A stretch of 64,000 nucleotides of DNA. Origin: Phaeobacter sp. 11ANDIMAR09. Its GTDB lineage: Bacteria > Pseudomonadota > Alphaproteobacteria > Rhodobacterales > Rhodobacteraceae. Below are positions 38,402-61,373 of this stretch, one piece after another (position 1 is the first letter of the stretch; each line of letters opens with the position of its first letter). Where the stretch lies: positions 124,001-188,000 of the forward strand of contig NZ_LIKT01000001.1 of the NCBI RefSeq assembly GCF_001294455.1. Direction: 5' to 3'. The position numbers were made by a program, and so were the translations under genes. The notes beneath the pieces are model-generated. The model did not search any database. It had not been told where the DNA came from and saw only the letters and a list, made by a program, of their open reading frames with translations.

Positions 38402-38929
38402 ATGATCGCTAAACTACTCCCCGTCATATTGCTGATTATCGGAACCGGAGCCGGGATTGGGGCGGGCATCATGCTTGCCCCCGCCCCGGAGCCCAAGGCC
38501 GAACATGCCGCTGGCGACGAAATGGGCGATGACATTGATCACGCCGATGAAGAAGAGGCCCTCGCCGAAAACGAAATGGGCGAGGACGTGTTGGAAGGCG
38601 ACCCGACCCGCGAATATGTCAAGATCGCCAATCAGTTTGTCATCCCCGTGGTGGAGCGTGAAAACCTGTCTTCGCTGGTGGTGATCGCGCTCAGCCTCGA
38701 GGCCAAGGTTGGCATGAGCGACAAGATCCATCTCTATGAACCCAAGCTGCGCGATGCCTTTTTGCAGGTGCTATTTGACCACGCCAATATGGGCGGGTTC
38801 CGCGGCGCCTTTACCCGCTCTGATGTGTTGAACCCTCTGCGCACGGCGCTGCGAGAAGCCGCGCAAAAGGAACTGGGCAAGGGCATCTATGATGTGCTCA
38901 TCGTCGAGATTTCGCGCCAGGACGTCTAA
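38402..38929 (+). CDS. FliL-family protein (first copy)
   Basis: This 175-aa protein has one N-terminal helix (LLPVILLIIGTGAGIGAGIMLAP, ~5-27), an acidic linker (~35-65) and a periplasmic FliL-like domain (~70-175: YVKIANQFVIPVVERENLSSLVVIALSLE, then RDAFLQVLFDHANMGGF). FliL stabilises stators at the basal body. A second, more typical FliL lies at 49.4 kb; the linker here is longer and more acidic. It ends the flgB operon before a strong terminator. Confidence 0.82.
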   Translation: MIAKLLPVILLIIGTGAGIGAGIMLAPAPEPKAEHAAGDEMGDDIDHADEEEALAENEMGEDVLEGDPTREYVKIANQFVIPVVERENLSSLVVIALSLEAKVGMSDKIHLYEPKLRDAFLQVLFDHANMGGFRGAFTRSDVLNPLRTALREAAQKELGKGIYDVLIVEISRQDV

Positions 38930-41503: not shown

Positions 41504-42279
41504 TGCAGGCCACCTCCGGGATCAGAAAAGAAGGCCATCATCTCGCGCAGCCAGGTATCCAGGATCATCGGGCTGGCGACCATCAGAATAAACAACCCGC
41601 CAAAGGTAATCACCGGCGCACCCACAAAGAACACCATGAGCTGAGGCATCGCGCGGTTAATCACGCCCAGCGCCAAATTGTAGATCACCGCCGTGATCAG
41701 GAAAGGCGCCGCCAGGGTGAAGGCCAGATAGAAGGACTTGGAGATCCGGTGCAGCCCCCACTCGGAAAAGCCTGCAGGCTCAGGATAGGCGCCGACCGGA
41801 AAGATCTGGTAGGAATAGATCAGAAACTCCGCCACCCGGACATGCAGCCCCATCATCACGGCCAGCGCCAGACCGGAGACCAGCAGCACACCACCGATCG
41901 CAGGCAGCGCATCCGCACCGATACTGCCAAGAACTTGCGACAAGGAGGTGCTTTGTGCTGCAATTGTCCCGGCAATCTGTAGCCCCATGATAAACAGACG
42001 CACCGACACCCCCAAAGCCAGGCCGATAATGGCCTCGCTGGCGGCCAGACCGGCAAAATGCAGCGGTGTTGCGGGTTCGGGAAACAAGGACAAGGCCGGT
42101 GCCACAACAAAGGTGAAGGCAACGGCGATCCCCAGTTTCACATTCATCGGGACATATTGTTCGCCAAAGGCCGGCAGTACTGCCGTCATGGCGCCGACCC
42201 GCAGGAACACGATGGCAAAATGCCAGAAACTCGCCCCTAGAAATGCGCGCAGCTCTGGAGGGAAGTCCAGCGGTGTCAT
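41500..42279 (-). CDS. fliR: flagellar export gate protein FliR
   Basis: This 259-aa polytopic protein matches FliR: FLRVGAMTAVLPAFGEQYVPMNVKLGIA near the N-terminus and GLQIAGTIAAQSTSLSQVLG in the middle, with about six hydrophobic segments. It forms the gate with FliP and FliQ. Overlaps flhA and flhB by 4 nt each, so the three are coupled. Confidence 0.95.
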   Translation of the reverse strand: MTPLDFPPELRAFLGASFWHFAIVFLRVGAMTAVLPAFGEQYVPMNVKLGIAVAFTFVVAPALSLFPEPATPLHFAGLAASEAIIGLALGVSVRLFIMGLQIAGTIAAQSTSLSQVLGSIGADALPAIGGVLLVSGLALAVMMGLHVRVAEFLIYSYQIFPVGAYPEPAGFSEWGLHRISKSFYLAFTLAAPFLITAVIYNLALGVINRAMPQLMVFFVGAPVITFGGLFILMVASPMILDTWLREMMAFFSDPGGGLQ

Positions 42280-44375
42280 GCCGCGACCATTCCAACAAGC
42301 GCAGGGCGAGCCTCTAGGCCGATCTCCTCAAAGGAGAGAACCGGATTGGTGATGCCGCGGGATTTCAGGATAGTGCGCAGGTAGCGCCTGCGCCGGGTTG
42401 AGGTCACCACAGCGGCAAAGACACCCTGCTCGGTCACCGTGGTCAGGCGCTCGCTCAGCCCTTCAGCTAGGCGGTTGAACATATCGGGCGGCAGGGCCAC
42501 GTCAAGATTTCCGGCGCTGACATCCATCTGATAGGTCGAGAAGGTATCTTCCCATTCCGGCGCCAGCTGGATCAGCGGGATGGTCCCGTCTTCGCGCTTC
42601 ATCTCGGCAACCAACTGGAAACCCAGACGCTGACGCACCTGCTCACAGATCACTTCCGGTTGGGTGGACTGGATACGGGCTTCAGCAATGGCTTCCAGAA
42701 TCAACGGCAGATTTCGGATCGAAACACGCTCGTCCAGCAACAGACGCAGAACCGAATGCAGAGTATCTAGCGGCACCTTGTCAGGCACCAGATCATCCAG
42801 CAGCTTGCGATTGGCTTCGGCGCGGAACTGATCGGTCAGTTCAGTCATTTCATTCAGCAGGCGACGCAGAGATTTGAAGGTCAGCAAACGGGCAAAGTTT
42901 TGTTTGATCACTTCCAGCAGATGGGTTGCCAGAATTTCCGGCGGGGTCACAACCGTCGCGCCTGCCAGCACCGCATCCTGTTGCTGAGCCGCATTGATCC
43001 AGCGCGCGGGCGCGCCATAAACGGGCTCGGTCACATCGGTTCCAGGTGGCAGGGCCCCATGATTGTCCGGCATCAGGGCCAGCACCATATCAGGGTGAAG
43101 AGTGCCACGGACCTGTTCCACCCCCTGAACCTTGACCACATAGGTGCCGCGTTCCAAATCGGCCTGATCGGTCAGGCGGATTTCGGGTAGAATGAGGCCA
43201 AAGCTTGTCGCGATATGGGTTCGCATATTGGCAATACGCGCGTCCAGGCCGGTGCCGGCATCCAAGACCATGCTCACCAGATCCGGTGCAAACTCCAGGT
43301 GCAGATCGTCCAGGTCCAAAATATCCCCCAGGGCTTTTGCCGGGGTCGGATTGGCGGTTTCTTCCATTTCCTCTTCGATTTCAGCCTCTTCTTCGGCCTT
43401 GATCTTTTGCTGAATGCGATAGGCTGCAAACCCCAGCACCCCGCCGCCAATGACAAAGGGCAGGAAGGGGAGGCCAGGAACCAGAGCAAACATAACCATC
43501 AGGACCGCAACCGTGGCCAGGGCCGCCGGGTGCTTACCGAACTGATCCATCAAAGCGATATCAGTCGCCCCGGTGGCGCCGCCACGCGCCAGCAACAACG
43601 CAGCAGCAATCGAGATGATCACCGATGGAATCTGCGAGACAAGCCCATCGCCGACAGTCAGGATCGCATAGGTCTCAAAGGCGGTGGAGACCGGCATGCC
43701 GTGGACCAGAACGCCCATCACCAGGCCCATCACCAAGTTCAATAGGGTGATCAACAGACCTGCAACCGCATCGCCTTTGACGAATTTTGAGGCACCATCC
43801 AACGAGCCAAAGAAGGTGGTCTCCTTCTGGTCGTTTTCGCGACGAGCCTTGGCGGTGGCGTGATCAATCGCGCCAGCCGCCATATCGGCATCAATCGCCA
43901 TCTGTTTGCCGGGCATCCCATCCAGCGCAAAACGCGCCCCAACTTCGGCCATCCGGGCCGCACCCTTGTTGATCACCATGAAGTTCACGATGAGCAAAAC
44001 ACCAAAGGTCACCAAACCCAGAAAAACGCTGCCACTCATGACAAACTGGGCAAAGCCCTGGATCACATTGCCAGCCGCATCGGTGCCGGTGTGGCCCTGG
44101 CCGATGATCAGCTTGGTGGAGGAGATGTTCAGCGACAGGCGCAGCATCAAAGAGGCCAGCAGGATCGTCGGAAAGGAGGAGAAATCCAGCGGCCGTTCAA
44201 TGAACAGGGTGATGGTAAAGATTAGAATCGCTAGGCCAAAGGAGGCGGCGAGACCCACATCAAGTACCCAGGCTGGCATCGGCAGAATCATCATGACGAT
44301 GATTGCCATCAGAGCCAGCGCCAAAAGCACGGTCGGGCTGAATAGCTGTTGAGCGGTTAATTTAGGCACAAGCAT
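42276..44375 (-). CDS. flhA: flagellar export gate protein FlhA
   Basis: This 699-aa protein starts at ATG 44375 (an in-frame TTG lies at 44393). The N-terminal half (~20-330) has eight helices with the conserved FHIPEP-type cytoplasmic loop (VGARFALDGMPGKQMAIDADMAAGAI, ~145-170). The C-terminal half (~360-699) is the soluble docking domain. A 357-nt upstream spacer contains its promoter. Confidence 0.96.
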   Translation of the reverse strand: MLVPKLTAQQLFSPTVLLALALMAIIVMMILPMPAWVLDVGLAASFGLAILIFTITLFIERPLDFSSFPTILLASLMLRLSLNISSTKLIIGQGHTGTDAAGNVIQGFAQFVMSGSVFLGLVTFGVLLIVNFMVINKGAARMAEVGARFALDGMPGKQMAIDADMAAGAIDHATAKARRENDQKETTFFGSLDGASKFVKGDAVAGLLITLLNLVMGLVMGVLVHGMPVSTAFETYAILTVGDGLVSQIPSVIISIAAALLLARGGATGATDIALMDQFGKHPAALATVAVLMVMFALVPGLPFLPFVIGGGVLGFAAYRIQQKIKAEEEAEIEEEMEETANPTPAKALGDILDLDDLHLEFAPDLVSMVLDAGTGLDARIANMRTHIATSFGLILPEIRLTDQADLERGTYVVKVQGVEQVRGTLHPDMVLALMPDNHGALPPGTDVTEPVYGAPARWINAAQQQDAVLAGATVVTPPEILATHLLEVIKQNFARLLTFKSLRRLLNEMTELTDQFRAEANRKLLDDLVPDKVPLDTLHSVLRLLLDERVSIRNLPLILEAIAEARIQSTQPEVICEQVRQRLGFQLVAEMKREDGTIPLIQLAPEWEDTFSTYQMDVSAGNLDVALPPDMFNRLAEGLSERLTTVTEQGVFAAVVTSTRRRRYLRTILKSRGITNPVLSFEEIGLEARPALVGMVAA

Positions 44376-44732
44376 TCTCTTGTTCTGGAGCAATCAGGCT
44401 GCTGATTTCGACGTGGAATTTGATGGCAGGCCAAAGCCCCCCACAAAATGGCGGGTCCTGGGCTATGTCGGAGGGGGGCATTGGCGGGGAGCAGGCCGCT
44501 GCCCGCTGCCCTGAAACAACAGGGGCAGGCCTATGGTGCAGTGACTGCGACAGGGCGCGGTCCAAAGTTCTGATAGCTAACAGCATTCTGCCTGTCCAAT
44601 CGCGGATTCATCTAAAATCCAAGGTAGTTTCAGACAGTTGACAAAGTGTTAGCACGGACGGCGAAAGGCCGCCCTGCTGGACGGCCTTGCGGTTATATTT
44701 TGAAAGGGTGGGCGAGGTTTGCCCGGAGGTCG
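44376..44732. other. 357-nt spacer upstream of flhA
   Basis: No gene was found. It should hold the flhA promoter on the minus strand, but I saw no CtrA-like box. A G/C-rich region at 44493-44532 can fold (AGGCC/GGCCT outside, TGCCCTG/CAGGGGCA inside with an unpaired bulge); this may be a leader structure. At the right end lies the hairpin at 44665-44688. Confidence 0.45.
44665..44688 (-). terminator. stem-loop downstream of the 857-aa motor-cluster gene
   Basis: A 10-bp stem with one wobble (aaggccgtcc/gggcggcctt on the minus strand), loop AGCA, then TTTCG. It sits 45 nt after the stop and upstream of flhA. Confidence 0.62.
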
Positions 44733-47306
44733 TTATTCTTCTGCGGGGGTATTGGCAGTGTCGACCCGGTTGAGCAGATCCAGAATATTGTCGCGGGTGC
44801 CGATACTGCTTTCGACCAAAGCACGGGCATGGGCCAGCGGCGTCAAACCTTCGGGATCTTGACTGGTTTCAGAGATCTGGCTGGTCACATTTGCCACCTG
44901 CCCAAAGGGGGCATCCTCGGCCGGGGTTATGGTTTCAATCGCTTCCAGATCTTCGGAATGCCAGAACCCGCGCGCAGCCGCGTTCATGTCCTCTTCTTCC
45001 AGCATATATTCACCCGAGCGCGCATATTCTCCGTTGCGCCACAGGGCTTCGGCCCGCATCCGGTTGGCGTCAGAGCCATCCAGACCCATTAGCTCAACCA
45101 GCGCATTATGGGGTTTGCCCAGCGCCAGCGCGGTTTCAGCCATCATCAGGCGACGGTCCTTATTCTCTGGCTCCAGCGCCAGCTTTTGCAGCAGCGACTG
45201 CGCCTGTTCTGCAAAGCCCAGATCCAGCATGCGGCGCGCCATCAGCTCGGCCACCGGGGCAGCTTCGGCGGCACTCGCCTGGCCAGAAAACACCAAACCA
45301 TACTGCAGGAAGGTCACATCGTCCGCGCGTTCTGTCAGCAGCGTCATCAGTGGATCGACGACCTCGACACGTGCGGCCGGCCCATCCCGCTGAGTGATCT
45401 TCTTCAGCTCATCAAAGGCCTGGGTGAACTGGCCGGTCAGTGCCAGAGACATGACCCCGGCCTTGCGCAGCCTCGCGCCCAATTCAGTATCACGGCTTTC
45501 CAGTTCATAAGAGGCAATCAACTCCGGCACATCCGGCGACAGAGCCTTGCGCTCATTATAGCTAAGGTCGATCAGATCGATCAAAGCCGTTGGCGCGCTC
45601 TCGGTGCGCTCCGCCACCTCGTCGATCAGCTTTTCCGCAACAACTTCAGTATCCCCTTCCAGCTCGGCAATAGCGGCTTCGGCCAGGTTGAGCTCCGGCA
45701 CAAATTCCATCCCGGTCCGGCTGACCGAGCGCAGAATGGATTCGGCAATGTGAAGATCACCAGAATCAGCAAACATAGAGCTGAGGCGCGGGCCAAAGTT
45801 CACCCGAAGATGTACTGGCAATTTGGCAAAGCCCTGCTGGATGGCATCGGTATTTGCGGTCTTGCGAATATTGCCATCCGCCAACACCGACCAAAGCGCC
45901 GATTGCCCGTTACAACCCTGCTGGCCCGAAAAGGGGTGATTGATTCCCAGCTCCCGACCATCCATCAGATCCGCCATCGCCAAAAGCGTGGCCTGTTGTT
46001 CGGCATCGACCCTGTCCGCAGGCAGCATGGTGAGCATCGCGCGGGCTTCTGCGCCAAACCCAAAATAGAGATACAACTTGGCCAGGGCGCGCACACCCGC
46101 CGGATTTACGTCGTCAAATTCGCGCACCAGCGCCCCACGCAGGGGACCAAGCTGATCGGCAAAGGAGCTTTCGTCATTGCCCCATTTTTGAATGGAGATC
46201 CGGCGATCCGGGATACAGTGGTCGTCCACATTGCTGTCCGATACCGACCGCGCAATCAGCCCCGTCTCGCGGTCGATAGCCGAGGTCACCGAAATATTGT
46301 CCAGCGGATTCAAAGGACGGTCCGCCCGACCCAATAGGTCGAGAGGCCGGGATCCTTCGCCCTCCCGGTCAGATTGCACCACATCCAGCAGACCCTGGTT
46401 AGCGGCGCGACCAATTTGCTGCAGCAGGCGATGCTCTGAGGCATTCACCGTTGCCGCCCGCGCGGTCTCATCCATGTTGAGCAACAGGTTGACCTCGGGC
46501 AATTCTTGATCGACCTCCGCTGTTTCCTGCTCAGTCACCTCCGCCTCTTGTGCCACTTCCGGCTTCAGAGGAGAGGGGCGCGGGGTCAGGCCAAGTTCAG
46601 CCTCCAACCCGGCCGCCAGTACTGCCGCCCCACGCGACCCCAGCTGTGCGGGTTCCGCCAGGCGGGAGGCTTCTGCAGCCATCTGCTGGGAGGTCGGAGC
46701 AGGGTCGTGCTCTTGCACCGGCTCGGCCTGCGATCGGCTGACCTGGCCACCCCGATCAGCGTTGATCGCGTTCTTCAGGTCCAAAGCCATACGGGCATCA
46801 GCAATGGCACCCTGCGACAGGTTAAAGCGGTAGCCAGAGGTCGCTGGGGCCACGGATGGCTCAGCGGCAGCGGTTTCAACTGGTGACCCAAGCGTCAGGC
46901 CACCAAAATTGCCCTGAATAGGATTGGAGGGCGCTGCCGCGCTGCGATTGTCTGTGATGTCGACAACCAGATAGCCATCACTTTGCAGATAGGATTGGAT
47001 TTCACACTCACAGCCCAGCTCCATCCGCAGGGGCTGACCGGGGCCGCTTTGCGTCAGGCGTTCCAACCGATCACGTGGGATCAGGTCAAAAACTCGCGAG
47101 GTGTCAAATACAGCGGTAGACGAATTAATTTTTAGGCTTGCGGCACGCCCAGATTGGTTGAGCGTCCATTGAGCCCCCTCAGGCAGGCGCATGACCAGGC
47201 GCGAGAAGCCATCATGCTCACCGGAGCGGGCGACGATGGTCTCGGCCTGGGCAGAGGAGCCCGCCGCCAACGCTGTGGCGGCTATCGCAAATGCGCGCCA
47301 AATCAT
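44733..47306 (-). CDS. large periplasmic AMIN-like/helical-repeat protein of the motor cluster
   Basis: This 857-aa protein has a signal peptide (cleaved after GSSAQA, ~20), a beta-rich AMIN-like segment (~22-115: SRLVMRLPEGAQW, DGYLVVDITDN), an acidic, Pro/Gln/Glu-rich linker (~120-300), and a C-terminal array of helical TPR-like repeats (~395-840). Residues ~365-372 and ~460-475 contain two Cys-bearing motifs (DDHCIPDRR, GQQGCNG). It overlaps motA by 4 nt, so it is made with the stator. Rhizobial MotC is a periplasmic motor protein in a comparable position, but I see no clear homology. Function is inferred only from position. Confidence 0.75.
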   Translation of the reverse strand: MIWRAFAIAATALAAGSSAQAETIVARSGEHDGFSRLVMRLPEGAQWTLNQSGRAASLKINSSTAVFDTSRVFDLIPRDRLERLTQSGPGQPLRMELGCECEIQSYLQSDGYLVVDITDNRSAAAPSNPIQGNFGGLTLGSPVETAAAEPSVAPATSGYRFNLSQGAIADARMALDLKNAINADRGGQVSRSQAEPVQEHDPAPTSQQMAAEASRLAEPAQLGSRGAAVLAAGLEAELGLTPRPSPLKPEVAQEAEVTEQETAEVDQELPEVNLLLNMDETARAATVNASEHRLLQQIGRAANQGLLDVVQSDREGEGSRPLDLLGRADRPLNPLDNISVTSAIDRETGLIARSVSDSNVDDHCIPDRRISIQKWGNDESSFADQLGPLRGALVREFDDVNPAGVRALAKLYLYFGFGAEARAMLTMLPADRVDAEQQATLLAMADLMDGRELGINHPFSGQQGCNGQSALWSVLADGNIRKTANTDAIQQGFAKLPVHLRVNFGPRLSSMFADSGDLHIAESILRSVSRTGMEFVPELNLAEAAIAELEGDTEVVAEKLIDEVAERTESAPTALIDLIDLSYNERKALSPDVPELIASYELESRDTELGARLRKAGVMSLALTGQFTQAFDELKKITQRDGPAARVEVVDPLMTLLTERADDVTFLQYGLVFSGQASAAEAAPVAELMARRMLDLGFAEQAQSLLQKLALEPENKDRRLMMAETALALGKPHNALVELMGLDGSDANRMRAEALWRNGEYARSGEYMLEEEDMNAAARGFWHSEDLEAIETITPAEDAPFGQVANVTSQISETSQDPEGLTPLAHARALVESSIGTRDNILDLLNRVDTANTPAEE

Positions 47307-48172
47307 GCTGCGTCCTGTTTTACCGATCTAAGGGCTTCTTCCAGTTCAGAGAAACCGGGGCGAATATGCGAAGGCGTGTTCTGGCGACCAACTTCGATGC
47401 AGATGGCGGCCGCGTGGTTATGCAGATTCGCAACCAGCACTTCGCGGATCAATTTGTAGAAATGTGAGTCTTCCTCGGTGATGGTTTTCACCTTGTCGGC
47501 AAAGGGGCCGACCAGACCATAGGCCAGGAAAACGCCCAGGAAGGTCCCAACCAGAGCACCACCAATCATCTTACCCAAAACTTCTGGTGGCTGGTCGATC
47601 GAAGCCATGGTTTTGATAACACCCAGAACAGCCGCAACAATCCCCAGAGCCGGAAGACCATCCGCCATGGTTTGCAGGGCATGGCTGGAGTGCAGCGCAT
47701 GGTGGTGATTGGCCTCCATGCGTTTCTCCAGCACCTCTTCGACCTGATGCGGGTCATCATAGTTCATCGAGGCAGAGCGCATGGTGTCGCAGATCAGGTT
47801 CACCGCTTCGCTATCCGCCAGGATTTTGGGGTATTTGTTAAAAACGGAGGAGTTCTCCGGGTCCTCGATATGCTGTTCCACTTCGACCGGGTTGGCTCGG
47901 GCGATTCGGATCAGCGAGAACAACAGGCACAAAAGGTCCCGATAATCATCGGACTTCCACTTGGCCCCTTTAAAGACCTTACCGAGGTCTTTCAGCGTGT
48001 GTTTGATGCCGCCCATATCGTTGCTGATCAGAAAGGCCCCAACCGCGGCTCCACCGATCATCATCATCTCAAAAGGAAGCGATTTAAGGATAATACCCAT
48101 TTTGCCGCCGGCCAGTAGATACCCACCGAACACCATGACAAAAATTACCAGGATGCCTGCTATTCCGACCAT
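47303..48172 (-). CDS. motA: flagellar stator protein MotA
   Basis: This 289-aa inner-membrane protein is MotA: VGIAGILVIFVMVFGGYLLAGGK start, the cytoplasmic loop with charged residues (~45-165), and the paired helices LGIVAAVLGVIKTMASI and GKMIGGALVGTFLGVFLAYGLVGPFA, with the Pro residues of the stator (MASIDQPPEVLG). Its partner MotB is 12 kb away at 60.5 kb. It overlaps the 857-aa gene. Confidence 0.96.
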   Translation of the reverse strand: MVGIAGILVIFVMVFGGYLLAGGKMGIILKSLPFEMMMIGGAAVGAFLISNDMGGIKHTLKDLGKVFKGAKWKSDDYRDLLCLLFSLIRIARANPVEVEQHIEDPENSSVFNKYPKILADSEAVNLICDTMRSASMNYDDPHQVEEVLEKRMEANHHHALHSSHALQTMADGLPALGIVAAVLGVIKTMASIDQPPEVLGKMIGGALVGTFLGVFLAYGLVGPFADKVKTITEEDSHFYKLIREVLVANLHNHAAAICIEVGRQNTPSHIRPGFSELEEALRSVKQDAA

Positions 48173-48248: not shown

Positions 48249-48881
48249 TTATTCCTTGGGAACGCCGCTGTTACGACCAGCCATGACAACGCTGATTGTA
48301 TAGGCCGCTTCCGGGCTCAGACCGGCCATAATGCCAGCCGCAGCCTCGGGCCGCATACGGGCCAGGAAACCGGCGGCAAAATTGGGATCCATCTCTTCAA
48401 ACAGAGCTGCTGATTCTTTTGGCTTCATCTGTTCATAAACCGTGGTGAGACGATCTACATCCGCCTCTGTGGCGCCATCGGCCATAGCCAATGTGGTGCG
48501 CAGCTCTTCCTCGGCCAATTCCAGTGCCGCCAATTTTCGATCAATGGCTTCATCCGCGATTTCCAGGGCCTTCATGCGATCTTCGATCTCGGCTTCACGC
48601 GCTTCCAGGGCCGTTTCGCGTTCCTGAAAAGCCGCCAACATGGCCTGCAATTCCGCAGAAGAGGGCATACCCTCTGTTTGCATCCGCCCTGAATGATTGG
48701 GGGCTTCGCCCTCACCGTTTTGCAGGTTGGAGACTTCCCGCGCGATCGCAGGTCCGGCTTCCATGCCCAAACGCACCAGCGCAGAGCCAATCAAGAGCAG
48801 CGACAACAAGAGCAAGGCACGGCTGCGGCTGCGACCTGGCTTCTTTTCTTTTTTTGCCTTTGGGTTTTTTGCAGTCATCAC
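48249..48881 (-). CDS. motE: MotE-like protein with MgtE-N-type domain
   Basis: This 210-aa protein has a basic N-tail, one helix (ALLLLSLLLIGSALVRLGM, ~22-40), a long coiled coil (~80-135) and a C-terminal MgtE-N-like motif (YEQMKPKESAALFEEMDPNFAAGFLARMRPEAAAGIM). Such MotE proteins act as chaperones or partners for periplasmic motor proteins in rhizobia; here its neighbours are the large periplasmic protein and motA. Overlaps the next upstream gene by ATGA. The symbol rests on family and context. Confidence 0.8.
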   Translation of the reverse strand: MMTAKNPKAKKEKKPGRSRSRALLLLSLLLIGSALVRLGMEAGPAIAREVSNLQNGEGEAPNHSGRMQTEGMPSSAELQAMLAAFQERETALEAREAEIEDRMKALEIADEAIDRKLAALELAEEELRTTLAMADGATEADVDRLTTVYEQMKPKESAALFEEMDPNFAAGFLARMRPEAAAGIMAGLSPEAAYTISVVMAGRNSGVPKE

Positions 48882-49345
48882 GCCACCCGATTCTTGTCGC
48901 GGTTATGGCGGACAAACATCACACCCGCCGATTTGTTTGGGTCTTCGACCTGAACTTCGGGCTCGGGGGCTGCTTCGGTCTCATAGGCGACCGCCAGCGC
49001 ATCGCTTTCCTCTGCGCGTGTGACAGCTGCGCGTGGAGGTTGTGCTGCTTCTGGCGCCACCTCCGGCAGGTCATGCATCGAGGCCATCATCAGTTCCAGT
49101 CGCTGCGCCACCGATTCGGCCCGCCCGGTGAGCTGATCCAGCGCCTGGCTGGAGCCCTCTGTGATTTGCCGTGCCGAGGCAAAAGATTTGTTCAGATCCT
49201 CAACCTGCGAGGAAAGCACGGCAACGGCTCCGCCGACGCCTTTCTCCAGGTCGTTGAACCGTTTCAGGCGCCGCGAAAGCACCAAACAATAAAAACCAGC
49301 CCCGAGGGCCCCTGCTGCAAGCAGGATATCAGCAATAAGGTCCAT
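48878..49345 (-). CDS. membrane-anchored coiled-coil protein of the motor cluster
   Basis: This 155-aa protein has one N-terminal helix (IADILLAAGALGAGFYCLVLS, ~4-24), a coiled coil (~28-95) and an acidic, Ala/Pro/Glu-rich tail ending KSAGVMFVRHNRDKNRVA. I know no named family for it; it occurs only as a hypothetical in such clusters, as far as I can tell from context. It lies between fliL and motE with a 9-nt gap and an overlap, so it is in the same operon. Confidence 0.7.
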   Translation of the reverse strand: MDLIADILLAAGALGAGFYCLVLSRRLKRFNDLEKGVGGAVAVLSSQVEDLNKSFASARQITEGSSQALDQLTGRAESVAQRLELMMASMHDLPEVAPEAAQPPRAAVTRAEESDALAVAYETEAAPEPEVQVEDPNKSAGVMFVRHNRDKNRVA

Positions 49346-49354
49346 CCCGTTCTC

Positions 49355-49879
49355 CTAGTTCAGTACGAATTCCATAATCAGCAAATCACGCACACGCCCC
49401 TGACCGGTGGCTATGTTGATTCGCCGCAGCATCTGTGCGCGCAGTTTTGGAAGCGCCATGGGATCAGACAGATCCTCAATTTCCAAAGCGCGAAGATAGC
49501 TATTCAGAACATCGACCACACGCGGGAGAACTTTCTCGACCTCGGCCTGGTGGATTTGATCCACCTCGAGGTTTGCGCTGAACCGAAGATGTTTAATGCC
49601 GCTGGCTTTGCGCAGCGAAATAACAATCGGTTCCATTTCGATGAAGGCAAGCCCAGCGATATCCTCCGCCGACTCACCACTACCTACGCCTTCTGGCGCT
49701 ACTTCAGCCGCATGAGTCTCTTCGGACTCTGCGGTTTGACTAAAGGGCAGAAGCCCTGACGAGACTGCAAAAAAACCGCCGCCGCCGCCTGCAATTGCAA
49801 GGACGACCCCAATGATGAGGGGCAGTTTGCTTTTTTTGACCGGTGCGTCTTCTTCCGCATTCACTACAGCGTCTGTCAT
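49355..49879 (-). CDS. fliL: flagellar basal body-associated protein FliL
   Basis: This 174-aa protein starts at ATG 49879 with AGGGA 6 nt upstream; an ATG at 49912 has a poorer site. One N-terminal helix (LPLIIGVVLAIAGGGGGFFAVSSGLLPF) is followed by the periplasmic FliL domain: IEMEPIVISLRKASGIKHLRFSANLEVD, then LRAQMLRRINIATGQGRVRDLLIMEFVLN. Head of the minus-strand fliL-motE-motA operon, divergent from fliF across a CtrA-like box. Confidence 0.92.
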   Translation of the reverse strand: MTDAVVNAEEDAPVKKSKLPLIIGVVLAIAGGGGGFFAVSSGLLPFSQTAESEETHAAEVAPEGVGSGESAEDIAGLAFIEMEPIVISLRKASGIKHLRFSANLEVDQIHQAEVEKVLPRVVDVLNSYLRALEIEDLSDPMALPKLRAQMLRRINIATGQGRVRDLLIMEFVLN

Positions 49880-49925
49880 GGCTTTCCCTAAAACGTCGTG
49901 CAAAGCCTTCATAACCCCTGAGGAA

Positions 49926-49940
49926 CTAACCGAATGTTAA
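49926..49940. promoter_or_regulatory. CtrA-like box (CTAA-N7-TTAA / TTAA-N7-TTAG) between fliL and fliF
   Basis: Read on the minus strand it is TTAA-N7-TTAG; on the plus strand CTAA-N7-TTAA. Spacing is exact. It lies 47 nt before fliL and 59 nt before fliF, so it could serve both. Confidence 0.5.
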
Positions 49941-53520: not shown

Positions 53521-54732
53521 ATGCGCGACTCTGCCCCTGATGACGCCCGCCTCCCCGTAACCGTGCTTTCCGGTTTTCTGGGAGCAGGCAAGACCACGCT
53601 GTTGAACCGTGTCCTGAACAACCGTGACGGGCGGCGCGTGGCTGTGATTGTCAACGATATGTCCGAAGTAAACATCGATGCCGATCTGGTCCGCGAGGGC
53701 ACTGAGTTGTCGCGCTCCGAGGAAACCCTCGTCGAGATGTCCAACGGCTGCATCTGCTGCACCCTGCGCGATGACCTGCTCAAGGAGGTTCGTCAGCTGT
53801 CAGAAGAAGGTCGGTTCGACTATCTGTTGATCGAATCCACCGGTATTTCCGAACCCCTGCCTGTGGCTGCCACCTTTGATTTCCGCGATGAAGAGGGCCA
53901 GAGCCTGTCTGACGTAGCGCGTTTGGATACCATGGTCACAGTTGTGGATGCTGTGAATCTGCTGGAGGATTTCTCCAGCCACGATTTCCTGACAGATCGC
54001 GGTGAATCCCTGGGCGAGGGCGACGACCGCAGCCTTGTCAGCCTGCTCACAGAACAGATTGAATTTGCCGATGTGGTGATCCTCAACAAGATCGCGGACG
54101 CAGGCCCCCAGCGTACAGAAAACGCCCGCAAGATCATCCGCGCCCTGAACGGTGACGCCAAGATCATCGAGACAAATCATTCCGAGGTGCCCGCCGAAAC
54201 CATCCTCGATACCGGCCTTTTTGACTTTGACACCGCACATGAGCACCCAATGTGGGCCAAGGAGCTCTATGGCTTTGCCAACCACACGCCCGAGGACGAG
54301 GAATACGGCATTGAATCCTTTGCCTATCACGCCCGCGCACCTTTTGATCCGCAGAAGCTGCACGCCGTTCTGAATGGCACCCTCCCCGGTGTGATCCGCG
54401 CCAAGGGTCATTTCTGGATCGCAACCCGTCCTGACTGGGCCGCAGAATTCAGCCTGGCCGGTGCCCTGTCCTCTATCGCGCCCCTGGGACGTTGGTGGGC
54501 CTCGGTACCCGAAGACCGCCTGCCTACCCATCCGCAGGCGCAGGCTGAAATTGCCCGCAACTGGGTCGAGCCCTGGGGCGATCGTCGGCAAGAGCTGGTC
54601 TTTATCGGCTCCGGGCTGGAGCGCGAGGTAATCTGCGAACGCTTGAATTCCGCGCTGGTCAATGCCGATGAGTTCCTGCCCTGGGCCTGGGCCGATATGG
54701 CCGACCCCTTCCCCCAATGGGGACAGCGCTGA
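53521..54732 (+). CDS. CobW/ZigA-family GTP-dependent zinc metallochaperone
   Basis: This 403-aa G3E GTPase has Walker [11 protein letters not shown] (~18-27), the metal-binding CxCC motif in [13 protein letters not shown] (~79-91), IESTGISEP, a NKxD-type base motif as ILNKIAD, and the C-terminal CobW_C domain (~270-395). It would deliver zinc to client proteins under limitation, as ZigA-type members are thought to do. The Zur-like box and coupling to the DUF1826 gene (TGATG) support a zinc role; the client is unknown. Confidence 0.88.
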
Positions 54733-55373
54733 TGCCGGATACCCTTCTTCGGAACACGCTGCAGCAGGTGCCTGCAGGTGTCAGTGTTGTAGAGCAGGCT
54801 GAGGATCTGTCGGTGATCCATCTCCCTGACTGCGCTGCTGCGATTTGGAACAAGGCACCCCTGCCAGGCTGCGAAGCCTGGCTCGATGCGTTGAACCCGA
54901 AGCAGCTGCCGCGGGCCCGCCTGATCCTGCGGCCAGATGCGGTAGAGCGCAGCATAATCCATCTGTTTGAAGGGGCAGAGATTCCAGCCTGCCCGGAACA
55001 GGACCTGCTGACAGCGGATATCGCTGCATTGGCAGAGCAGTTTTCGCAGATGATGACAGTAGACTATATCCGGCTGCGACTGGATGTGGTGCAAACCAAT
55101 GCCTGCAGAAAGTTCCATGTGGATGCGGTGCAGGCCCGTCTGGTCTGCACCTATCGCGGCACCGGAACCCAATTGGGCATGCAGGACCAAAACAATGAAC
55201 CACGGTGTTTGCTAACGGTCCCCACCGGCGCGCCTATTGTTCTGCGCGGCACAAAATGGCCGGAGTCCCCGCGCTCAGGCCTGTTGCACCGATCTCCGCC
55301 AATCGAGGGCACCGGCGAGACCCGGCTGGTTGTTGTCATTGACCCGGTAATAGATCCAGAAATGGAAATCTAA
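54732..55373 (+). CDS. DUF1826 protein, zinc-cassette partner
   Basis: This 213-aa protein of DUF1826 starts in a TGATG overlap with the cobW gene. It has a KFHVDAVQARLVCTYRGTGT block (~115-134) with His and Asp that could bind metal, and a late LLHRSPPIEGTGETRLVVVIDP. The family often neighbours cobW genes in Zur regulons, which fits here, but no activity is known to me. A strong terminator follows. Confidence 0.8.
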   Translation: MPDTLLRNTLQQVPAGVSVVEQAEDLSVIHLPDCAAAIWNKAPLPGCEAWLDALNPKQLPRARLILRPDAVERSIIHLFEGAEIPACPEQDLLTADIAALAEQFSQMMTVDYIRLRLDVVQTNACRKFHVDAVQARLVCTYRGTGTQLGMQDQNNEPRCLLTVPTGAPIVLRGTKWPESPRSGLLHRSPPIEGTGETRLVVVIDPVIDPEMEI

Positions 55374-60475: not shown

Positions 60476-61309
60476 TTATTCGCGCAATAGGATGATTTCC
60501 ACCCGGTTATTGCGAACCGCCATCGGGTTGGTAACGGCGAGTTTTCGATCCGCATGCCCGGTCACGCGATGGACGCGGCTGGATCTCATGCCGCCCGATT
60601 CGAGCAGGGTCCGGGTTACATTTGCGCGCGCATGGGACATCTCCCAAACTGGGTTCTGCGCCAATACAACCGGATGCGATTGAATGTGACCGCTGATCGC
60701 GATGTTATTCGTCACACTGCCGCTAACGCGCGCCACCATACGGACCAGATCCCGGAAAAGCGGCGTTGGCTCAGCCTCACCCGAGGCAAAGAGATTAACC
60801 CCATCCGTCTCGAACAATTCGATGATCAGCCCTTCGTCAGTGACACGGGTAATGATGTGGCGCGACATCTCGACCGAGACCATGCTTTCCCCGCCACGAC
60901 CCTGTAGCTGTTCTTCGATGGCGCGGAATTTGCTGTCTTCCTCGGCCTTTTCGGCATCACTCACACCCGTCTCGCCCTGGGCTTTCTGCGTATCCATCGG
61001 ATTGATGTCAGAAGCACCTGTACCTGACTGCGGTTGAATGTCTTCGGTGAACATGCTGTCGCCCTGGAAGGCGCCATTGCCGCCACCGGAAATCCGGCTC
61101 AGCGGGATCGATGGCGAGAAATAGTCCGCCAGACCTTTACGTTGTTTCTCAGTTGTTGCGTTCAACAGCCACATCAACAAGAAGAACGCCATCATGGCTG
61201 TCACAAAGTCCGCATAGGCCACCTTCCAGGCGCCCCCGTGGTGGCCACCGCCACCGCTGACTTTTTTCCTCTTGATGATAATGGGCGCCATTCCGTTTTG
61301 TGCGCTCAT
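60476..61309 (-). CDS. motB: flagellar stator protein MotB
   Basis: This 277-aa protein is taken from MSAQNGMAPI; two GTG codons at 61321/61318 are alternatives. The single helix AYADFVTAMMAFFLLMWLLN contains the proton-binding Asp (~34). A linker with the plug region and a C-terminal OmpA-like peptidoglycan domain (ISGHIQSHPVVLAQNP, SSRVHRVTGHADRKL) follow. Motif HGGAWKVAYADF is typical. MotA is at 47.3 kb. A perfect CtrA consensus lies upstream. Confidence 0.93.
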   Translation of the reverse strand: MSAQNGMAPIIIKRKKVSGGGGHHGGAWKVAYADFVTAMMAFFLLMWLLNATTEKQRKGLADYFSPSIPLSRISGGGNGAFQGDSMFTEDIQPQSGTGASDINPMDTQKAQGETGVSDAEKAEEDSKFRAIEEQLQGRGGESMVSVEMSRHIITRVTDEGLIIELFETDGVNLFASGEAEPTPLFRDLVRMVARVSGSVTNNIAISGHIQSHPVVLAQNPVWEMSHARANVTRTLLESGGMRSSRVHRVTGHADRKLAVTNPMAVRNNRVEIILLRE

Positions 61310-61357
61310 ATCCACCACCACTAATTTTCACCCACTATTGGGATATCAGTTGGGGTG

Positions 61358-61373
61358 TTAATTGGCCCTTAAC
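61358..61373. promoter_or_regulatory. perfect CtrA box (TTAA-N7-TTAAC) upstream of motB
   Basis: Exact match to the CtrA consensus, 49 nt before the MotB ATG, in a spacer rich in extra TTAA half-sites (61374-61396). A rough hand estimate for ~60% GC DNA gives about 0.1 perfect match by chance in 64 kb. Confidence 0.72.

Follow-up and report, generated by a model that had tools for sequence, protein, structure and literature searches.

The window analysed here (the whole stretch of 64,000 nucleotides from Phaeobacter sp. 11ANDIMAR09) carries a flagellar gene cluster in which motA is followed by a gene for an 857-residue protein, for which an earlier note, made from the letters of the stretch alone, knew of no named function. 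Judged by sequence comparison, this gene is the roseobacter version (orthologue) of motK, a known part of the Fla2 flagellar motor of Cereibacter sphaeroides, and by gene order it is likely also CP4 of Phaeobacter inhibens. MotK itself is already known, and the window gene is a further example of it, ordinary in kind. The best explanation of its role, which we hold to be probable, is that motK (CP4 by gene order) encodes a periplasmic spoke that docks MotB stators together with MotE, by a mechanism that we infer by analogy with other motors.

Identity with MotK and domain layout

The open reading frame (ORF) is as the earlier note described it: 857 codons, free of internal stops, with four nucleotides (ATGA) shared with motA (Table 1). 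The overlap suggests one transcript for motA and motK, and to that extent the note's phrase "fused to the motA transcript" stands; it is not a protein fusion. One of the genomes searched, G086, is recognised as C. sphaeroides: its cytochrome b matches PDB chain 5kkz, which we take to be that of R. sphaeroides, with 100% identity across 434 residues, and its motK locus (L077) encodes a MotE of 185 and a MotK of 652 residues, both lengths exactly as published. The 652 residues are counted from an ATG that overlaps motA by 4 nucleotides, the start called by the ORF finder lying 32 codons upstream. BLASTP aligns the window protein with this MotK at 31% identity over 386 residues (116 bits) and at 39% over 111 residues. 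A 26-row family profile that does not include C. sphaeroides MotK matches it in hhalign at 100% probability (E 5e-72, 633 columns). When C. sphaeroides MotK is searched back against the window's genome, the window gene is the sole match up to the limit of E 10 (two stretches, best E 2.9e-31); the genome holds no second homologue of motK at E <= 0.001. The neighbouring MotE proteins of the two organisms are 53% identical over 131 residues.

The MotK of C. sphaeroides (RSWS8N_12065) is described as having a 24-residue signal peptide, an AMIN-like domain at residues 23-119, disordered stretches and a TPR-like part, and its gene ends the order fliL, pflI, motE, motA, motK (PMC10954123). The same order is found in the window. 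The two proteins also share the 4-nucleotide motA overlap, the AMIN-like N-terminus and the linker, to which the window protein adds a putative signal peptide and a weakly TPR-like C-terminus, and their homology covers most of the length. They differ in size, the linker and C-terminal region being longer in the window protein, and in that sltF follows motK in C. sphaeroides and not in the window. Low-similarity large relatives of MotK were already reported from Roseobacteraceae (PMC10954123). Because of the orthology and this literature, a new kind of protein was rejected.

The layout of the protein is given in Table 1. The N-terminus fits the exported, periplasmic location proposed earlier; by eye it shows a putative cleavage pattern, MIWRAFAIAATALAAGSSAQA/E, with the typical end AQA/E. 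The AMIN-like segment of the earlier note is borne out at the level of profiles: residues 22-121 match three AmiC-type AMIN domains in hhalign with probabilities of 54.7, 84.1 and 87.8%, and an alignment of the three with 93.8%, over a short aligned part (41-44 columns in all but one case), while nine control proteins reach at most 1.0%. Pfam confirms AMIN and Amidase_3 in the three comparison amidases, and the AMIN-like family PF24837 is found in 4 of 26 MotK family members (best E 0.016). The C-terminal region appears weakly TPR-like. TPR_19 matches it at E 2.9e-5 and is found at E up to 1 in 12 of the 26 members, so that the helical repeats expected by the earlier note are seen faintly. Two cysteines of this region, C364 and C465, occupy invariant columns of the 26-row alignment A1 and could, as a guess, form a disulphide. 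A scan with Pfam and NCBIfam returned this weak TPR match only, and phmmer and profile searches against PDB sequences gave no useful match.

The linker between the two domains is long and poorly conserved. It was called acidic in the earlier note, which is true of residues 244-282 (28% D/E) and not of the whole (14% across 122-285). It contains a conserved island, absent from the earlier note, that is aligned in all 26 rows of A1 (with an end gap in three) and has a matching segment in C. sphaeroides MotK. The island is possibly an amphipathic docking helix, the helix being a guess. In PflA of Campylobacter jejuni, the loop between the AMIN and TPR parts wraps PflB (PMC11870540); by analogy, and again as a guess, the island may be a docking element like that loop. 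It looks confined to Rhodobacteraceae-type proteins, because among 51 linkers of class-wide relatives only one reached 5 bits and none 8; none of five shuffled sets reached 5 bits.

Table 1. Coordinates of motK, the parts of its product and neighbouring features in the window
Feature	Coordinates	Strand	Basis or remark
motK (CP4 by gene order)	44733..47306	-	857 residues; ATG start overlaps motA stop by 4 nucleotides
putative Sec-type signal peptide, residues 1-21 (MIWRAFAIAATALAAGSSAQA)	47244..47306	-	by eye; similar N-termini in alignment A1
AMIN-like domain, residues 22-121	46944..47243	-	RSGEHDGFSRLV motif, CxC at 99/101; A1 conservation, hhalign
variable linker, residues 122-282	46461..46943	-	composition and conservation; acidic at 244-282
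conserved island in linker, residues 283-312 (contains SEHRLLQQIGRAANQGLLDV)	46371..46460	-	alignment A1
TPR-like helical C-terminal region, residues 361-857	44736..46226	-	TPR_19 just under cut-off
motA	47303..48172	-	TIGR03818 365.8 bits, cut-off 303.8
motE (CP3 by gene order)	48249..48881	-	weak MgtE_N and FlbB matches, both under cut-off
pflI-like gene (CP2 by gene order)	48878..49345	-	weak DUF6468; position as in PMC10954123 and PMC12363192
fliL	49355..49912	-	first gene of presumed operon
CtrA-like half-site pair TTAA-N7-TTAG	49926..49940	-	between divergent fliL and fliF
flhA	42276..44393	-	next flagellar gene downstream of motK
motB	60476..61321	-	MotB_plug match; followed by flgE, flgK, flgL, flgI

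Role in the motor and competing explanations

A study of 13,000 transposon mutants of P. inhibens describes four conserved uncharacterized proteins, CP1 to CP4, as essential for swimming, and its gene table gives the order CP2, CP3, motA, CP4, sltF, flhA, fliR, flhB (PMC12363192). By position, CP2 is likely PflI, CP3 MotE and CP4 (PGA1_c35690) MotK, since motK occupies the position between motA and the SLT-domain gene sltF in C. sphaeroides; the window gene, which follows motA in the same kind of cluster, is matched to CP4 by gene order alone. The main text of the P. inhibens study mentions neither MotK nor MotE nor Velez-Gonzalez. The same flagellum is called Fla2 by the C. sphaeroides authors (PMC10954123) and fla1-type by the P. 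inhibens authors (PMC12363192), a clash of names that may have hidden the link between CP4 and MotK.

Work on C. sphaeroides describes MotK as a periplasmic protein needed for rotation and dispensable for filament formation; motK and motE mutants have filaments and do not swim (PMC10954123). In vitro, MotE binds MotK and MotB2, and MotK binds MotB2 more weakly; the polar focus of MotK-sfGFP requires MotA2 and MotB2 (PMC10954123). These observations agree with the earlier note's idea of a stator scaffold. Two further systems are alike in outline. FssB of Caulobacter crescentus (CC_2058), a proposed relative, is an exported TPR protein whose gene adjoins the MotE-like CC_2059 and whose deletion paralyses the flagellum (PMC7885107). 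It reportedly has an AMIN-like N-terminus, yet no BLAST similarity to MotK (PMC10954123), and unlike MotK it is also tied to surface sensing; the likeness is drawn from published descriptions (PMC7885107). PflA of C. jejuni combines an AMIN-like beta-sandwich, a flexible loop and a TPR array, and is a spoke of the motor scaffold together with the MotE-like FlgY; it works, however, with PflB and a cage found only in Campylobacterota, and the likeness is structural (PMC11870540).

On the spoke model, the window protein would be exported by Sec, and its AMIN-like domain would rest on peptidoglycan or on neighbouring scaffold. The linker, flexible and carrying the conserved island, would bridge the gap and dock a partner, and the TPR-like region would bind MotE, presumed to be an E-ring protein. 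Copies of the protein would radiate around the motor as PflA-like spokes holding MotB, and MotA-MotB units would be captured and opened next to the rotor.

Several points weigh against this reading. The three amidases of the AMIN comparison were chosen among prior hits of the MotK profile, Pfam AMIN (PF11741) finds no match in the window protein at E up to 1, and the TPR_19 match, at 24.7 bits, falls 0.3 bits short of its cut-off of 25. No match to motK is found in 11 of the 172 Rhodobacteraceae genomes that have motA, though some of the 11 may have a flagellum of a different type. C. jejuni PflA is the source of the spoke model, and according to a review there is no cryo-electron tomography of C. 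sphaeroides or Sinorhizobium meliloti motors (PMC13023049). In P. inhibens, the exoproteome of the CP4 mutant has fewer flagellar proteins than the wild-type one, and no flagella were seen on CP2 and CP3 mutants (PMC12363192); a pure role in rotation for the whole module therefore fits poorly. The same paper names CP1 and CP3 as late-acting in its discussion, and CP1 and CP4 as still exporting filament protein in its results (PMC12363192).

The P. inhibens phenotypes could also mean that the protein is a factor in rod, hook or filament assembly, for example a periplasmic chaperone, with a secondary defect in rotation; the authors themselves propose roles at different assembly stages (PMC12363192). 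We consider this improbable. The CP4 mutant, although immotile, still exports FliC, FlgK and FlgE and is complemented, with the whole operon (PMC12363192); the transposon insertion, which has sltF and flhA downstream of it, may be polar; and filaments are kept in C. sphaeroides when motK or motE is mutated, and in the Caulobacter fssB mutant (PMC10954123, PMC7885107). Very improbable is a platform for cell-wall remodelling, in which SltF or other lytic enzymes would be recruited by the TPR part and positioned at the motor by the AMIN-like domain. AMIN domains do occur in amidases, and sltF is the gene immediately after motK in C. sphaeroides and one other genome (G016), and after CP4 in P. inhibens, where it is essential for swimming (PMC12363192). 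The binding of stator proteins by C. sphaeroides MotK argues against such a platform (PMC10954123), as does the fact that motK is kept where sltF is missing. In the window, the 339 bases between motK and flhA (44394-44732) are the place of sltF, and no sltF match was found in any of the 8 genomes searched among the 12 of the genus, while both positive controls matched.

The earlier note had compared the protein with rhizobial MotC, which is smaller than the window protein. MotC of S. meliloti is described as a TPR-rich periplasmic partner of MotE that is required for motor function, and the same review treats MotC and MotK as divergent homologues, both TPR-rich and both partners of MotE (PMC13023049). 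As an analogy the comparison is reasonable. That the window gene is the orthologue of motC is just as hard to credit as the remodelling platform, and was rejected because of position and the AMIN-like domain, MotC being known here by description: motC follows motB, and a MotC homologue is reportedly lacking in C. sphaeroides (PMC10954123), the window gene follows motA whereas motB is followed by flgE, and the AMIN domain of the MotK type is said to be absent from MotC (PMC13023049).

Distribution in Rhodobacteraceae and the wider class

Within the genus, the window protein is matched nearly full length in 9 of 11 other genomes. The match in G001 (L015, G001:C114:33555-36068) falls into three pieces (residues 1-47, 46-541 and 530-855), a possible frameshift or assembly error. 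Only G003 lacks a motK match, and it also lacks a motA match over the cut-off. Counting the window's own, motK is matched in 11 of the 12 genomes of the genus and in 30 of 60 related genomes, where the best match is always co-oriented with motA and 21 to 999 bases downstream of it (partial matches). A motK ORF was found in 24 of 40 motA neighbourhoods; it overlaps motA by 4 nucleotides in 19 and by 1 nucleotide in 2, and for the other 3 the ORF finder called an earlier start. No motK match accompanies motA at L054 and L055 of the Rhodobacteraceae, nor at any of the 14 loci from other families (L056-L069). In G034, a 235-residue ORF (L055:4861-5568) follows motA in the place of motK, with 4-nucleotide overlaps with both motA and flhA; it may represent a substitute for motK or a much shortened form of it.

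A survey of 248 Rhodobacteraceae genomes, the window's included, found motK in 164 and motA in 172: both are present in 161, motK alone in 3, motA alone in 11 and neither in 73. The two genes are adjacent in 132 of 137 pairs among the matches listed. In four of the five non-adjacent pairs the motK match begins no more than about 1.1 kb from the start of its contig; the fifth is G201. Homologues away from motA, which the earlier note had named as evidence against its proposal, were thus rejected for Rhodobacteraceae. A scan of named genomes gave four close relatives. A tblastn search of plasmids gave one distant relative, directly after motA on a Paroceanicella profunda plasmid with flagellar genes (L075:4993-7644), where it is annotated as "hypothetical protein".

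At E <= 0.001, the 26-row profile matches 106 of 289 genomes of the Alphaproteobacteria, 103 of them outside Rhodobacteraceae and spread over 73 families. A single stretch was taken per genome, except for one of the 103 that gave two, which makes 104 stretches; a local ORF matches in 96 and none in 8. Flagellar surroundings, defined as two or more further kinds of flagellar gene with MotE counted, are present for 68 of the 96 ORFs (68 genomes, 45 families). For 68 of the 96, the 4.5 kb upstream contain a MotE-like gene in the same orientation, and for 64 it goes together with flagellar surroundings. The 68 flagellar relatives have two AMIN-like hits in 36 cases, one in 22 and none in 10. The remaining matches include amidases (L180, L182, L192) and ORFs that have no flagellar neighbours, some of them on short contigs, as expected from common domains.

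Only one of the 68 stretches, L093, has a MotA match. Its order, motE-motA-motK, is that of Rhodobacteraceae, followed by flgF, flgG, flgA and flgH, a continuation shared with the Paroceanicella plasmid; its genome may therefore belong to the same order. The other relatives stand near motE instead, so that outside Rhodobacteraceae homologues away from motA do, in a sense, occur. CP1 to CP4 were claimed to be absent outside Rhodobacterales (PMC12363192). For MotK, the spread over 45 families suggested by these profile matches goes against that claim, with the reserve noted for L093. It fits the view that FlgY- and PflA-like proteins are widespread, a view that leaned on structure, sequence similarity being low (PMC11870540, PMC13023049).

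Elsewhere in the Alphaproteobacteria, the interval from motE to the AMIN-TPR gene often contains a pair of neighbouring MotB-plug-like genes, as at L095:6310-7733, L112:9932-11325, L100:5848-7343 and L105:7129-8531; in Rhodobacteraceae, motA holds their place. Pfam finds MotB_plug and OmpA in the downstream twin of L095, L100 and L112, and MotB_plug alone in the upstream twin of L095 (24.1 bits, cut-off 24) and of L112 (23.1 bits, just under it). At L101, Pfam finds MotB_plug but not OmpA in the downstream twin and nothing in the upstream one. With profiles from six loci, searched against 67 motE-to-motK intervals that include the seeds, both twins were found in 36, one in 4 and none in 27. 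Chemotaxis genes stand beside the twins in two loci: CheZ in L095:5620-6306 (PF04344, E 1.8e-16) and, by eye, a CheY-like receiver ORF in L112:12029-12430. A narrow literature search found no paper on the twin genes. A broader reading, which we put forward as doubtful, would make MotK/CP4 no addition peculiar to one order, but the Rhodobacterales form of a stator scaffold found throughout the Alphaproteobacteria. Elsewhere the scaffold would be a larger protein after motE, often with two AMIN-like domains and an adjoining unequal pair of MotB-plug proteins, while in Rhodobacteraceae motA would take the place of the pair, and MotK, by way of its linker island, would actively open the stator plug instead of serving as a passive anchor.

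Surroundings of the gene and meaning of the finding

The product of the window's motE has an MgtE_N-like C-terminus and is the presumed partner of MotK. In the window's genome, MotB_plug matches motB only. An exact CtrA-like site, TTAA-N7-TTAA (61358-61372), lies about 37 bases upstream of motB. With the consensus that we take CtrA to recognise (TTAA-N7-TTAG or TTAA-N7-TTAA), the window has 7 such sites where 4.6 are expected by chance; this excess is weak, and the sites are therefore not taken as proof of regulation. Scans for promoters and terminators gave a result no better than chance. A second FliL-like gene follows flgH (38402-38929; PF03748 E 0.00062, under the cut-off). Between fliP and flgI, the flagellar cluster also contains (53521-55373) a gene like that of ZigA, a zinc chaperone GTPase (580.8 bits, cut-off 600), and a 218-residue ORF with no NCBIfam match.

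What these results add is the likely identity of CP4 with MotK, the close association of motK with motA in Rhodobacteraceae, and the wider spread of the family. CP4, "uncharacterized" in the 2025 study of P. inhibens, would gain a name and a testable role, and the genetics of that organism would be joined to the biochemistry of MotK and MotE. The results also lend support to the wider view that many alphaproteobacterial motors have a MotE-MotK (FlgY-PflA-like) scaffold. For the bacterial-algal interactions of this group, motility by flagella is important (PMC12363192), so that the essential parts of its motor bear on them.

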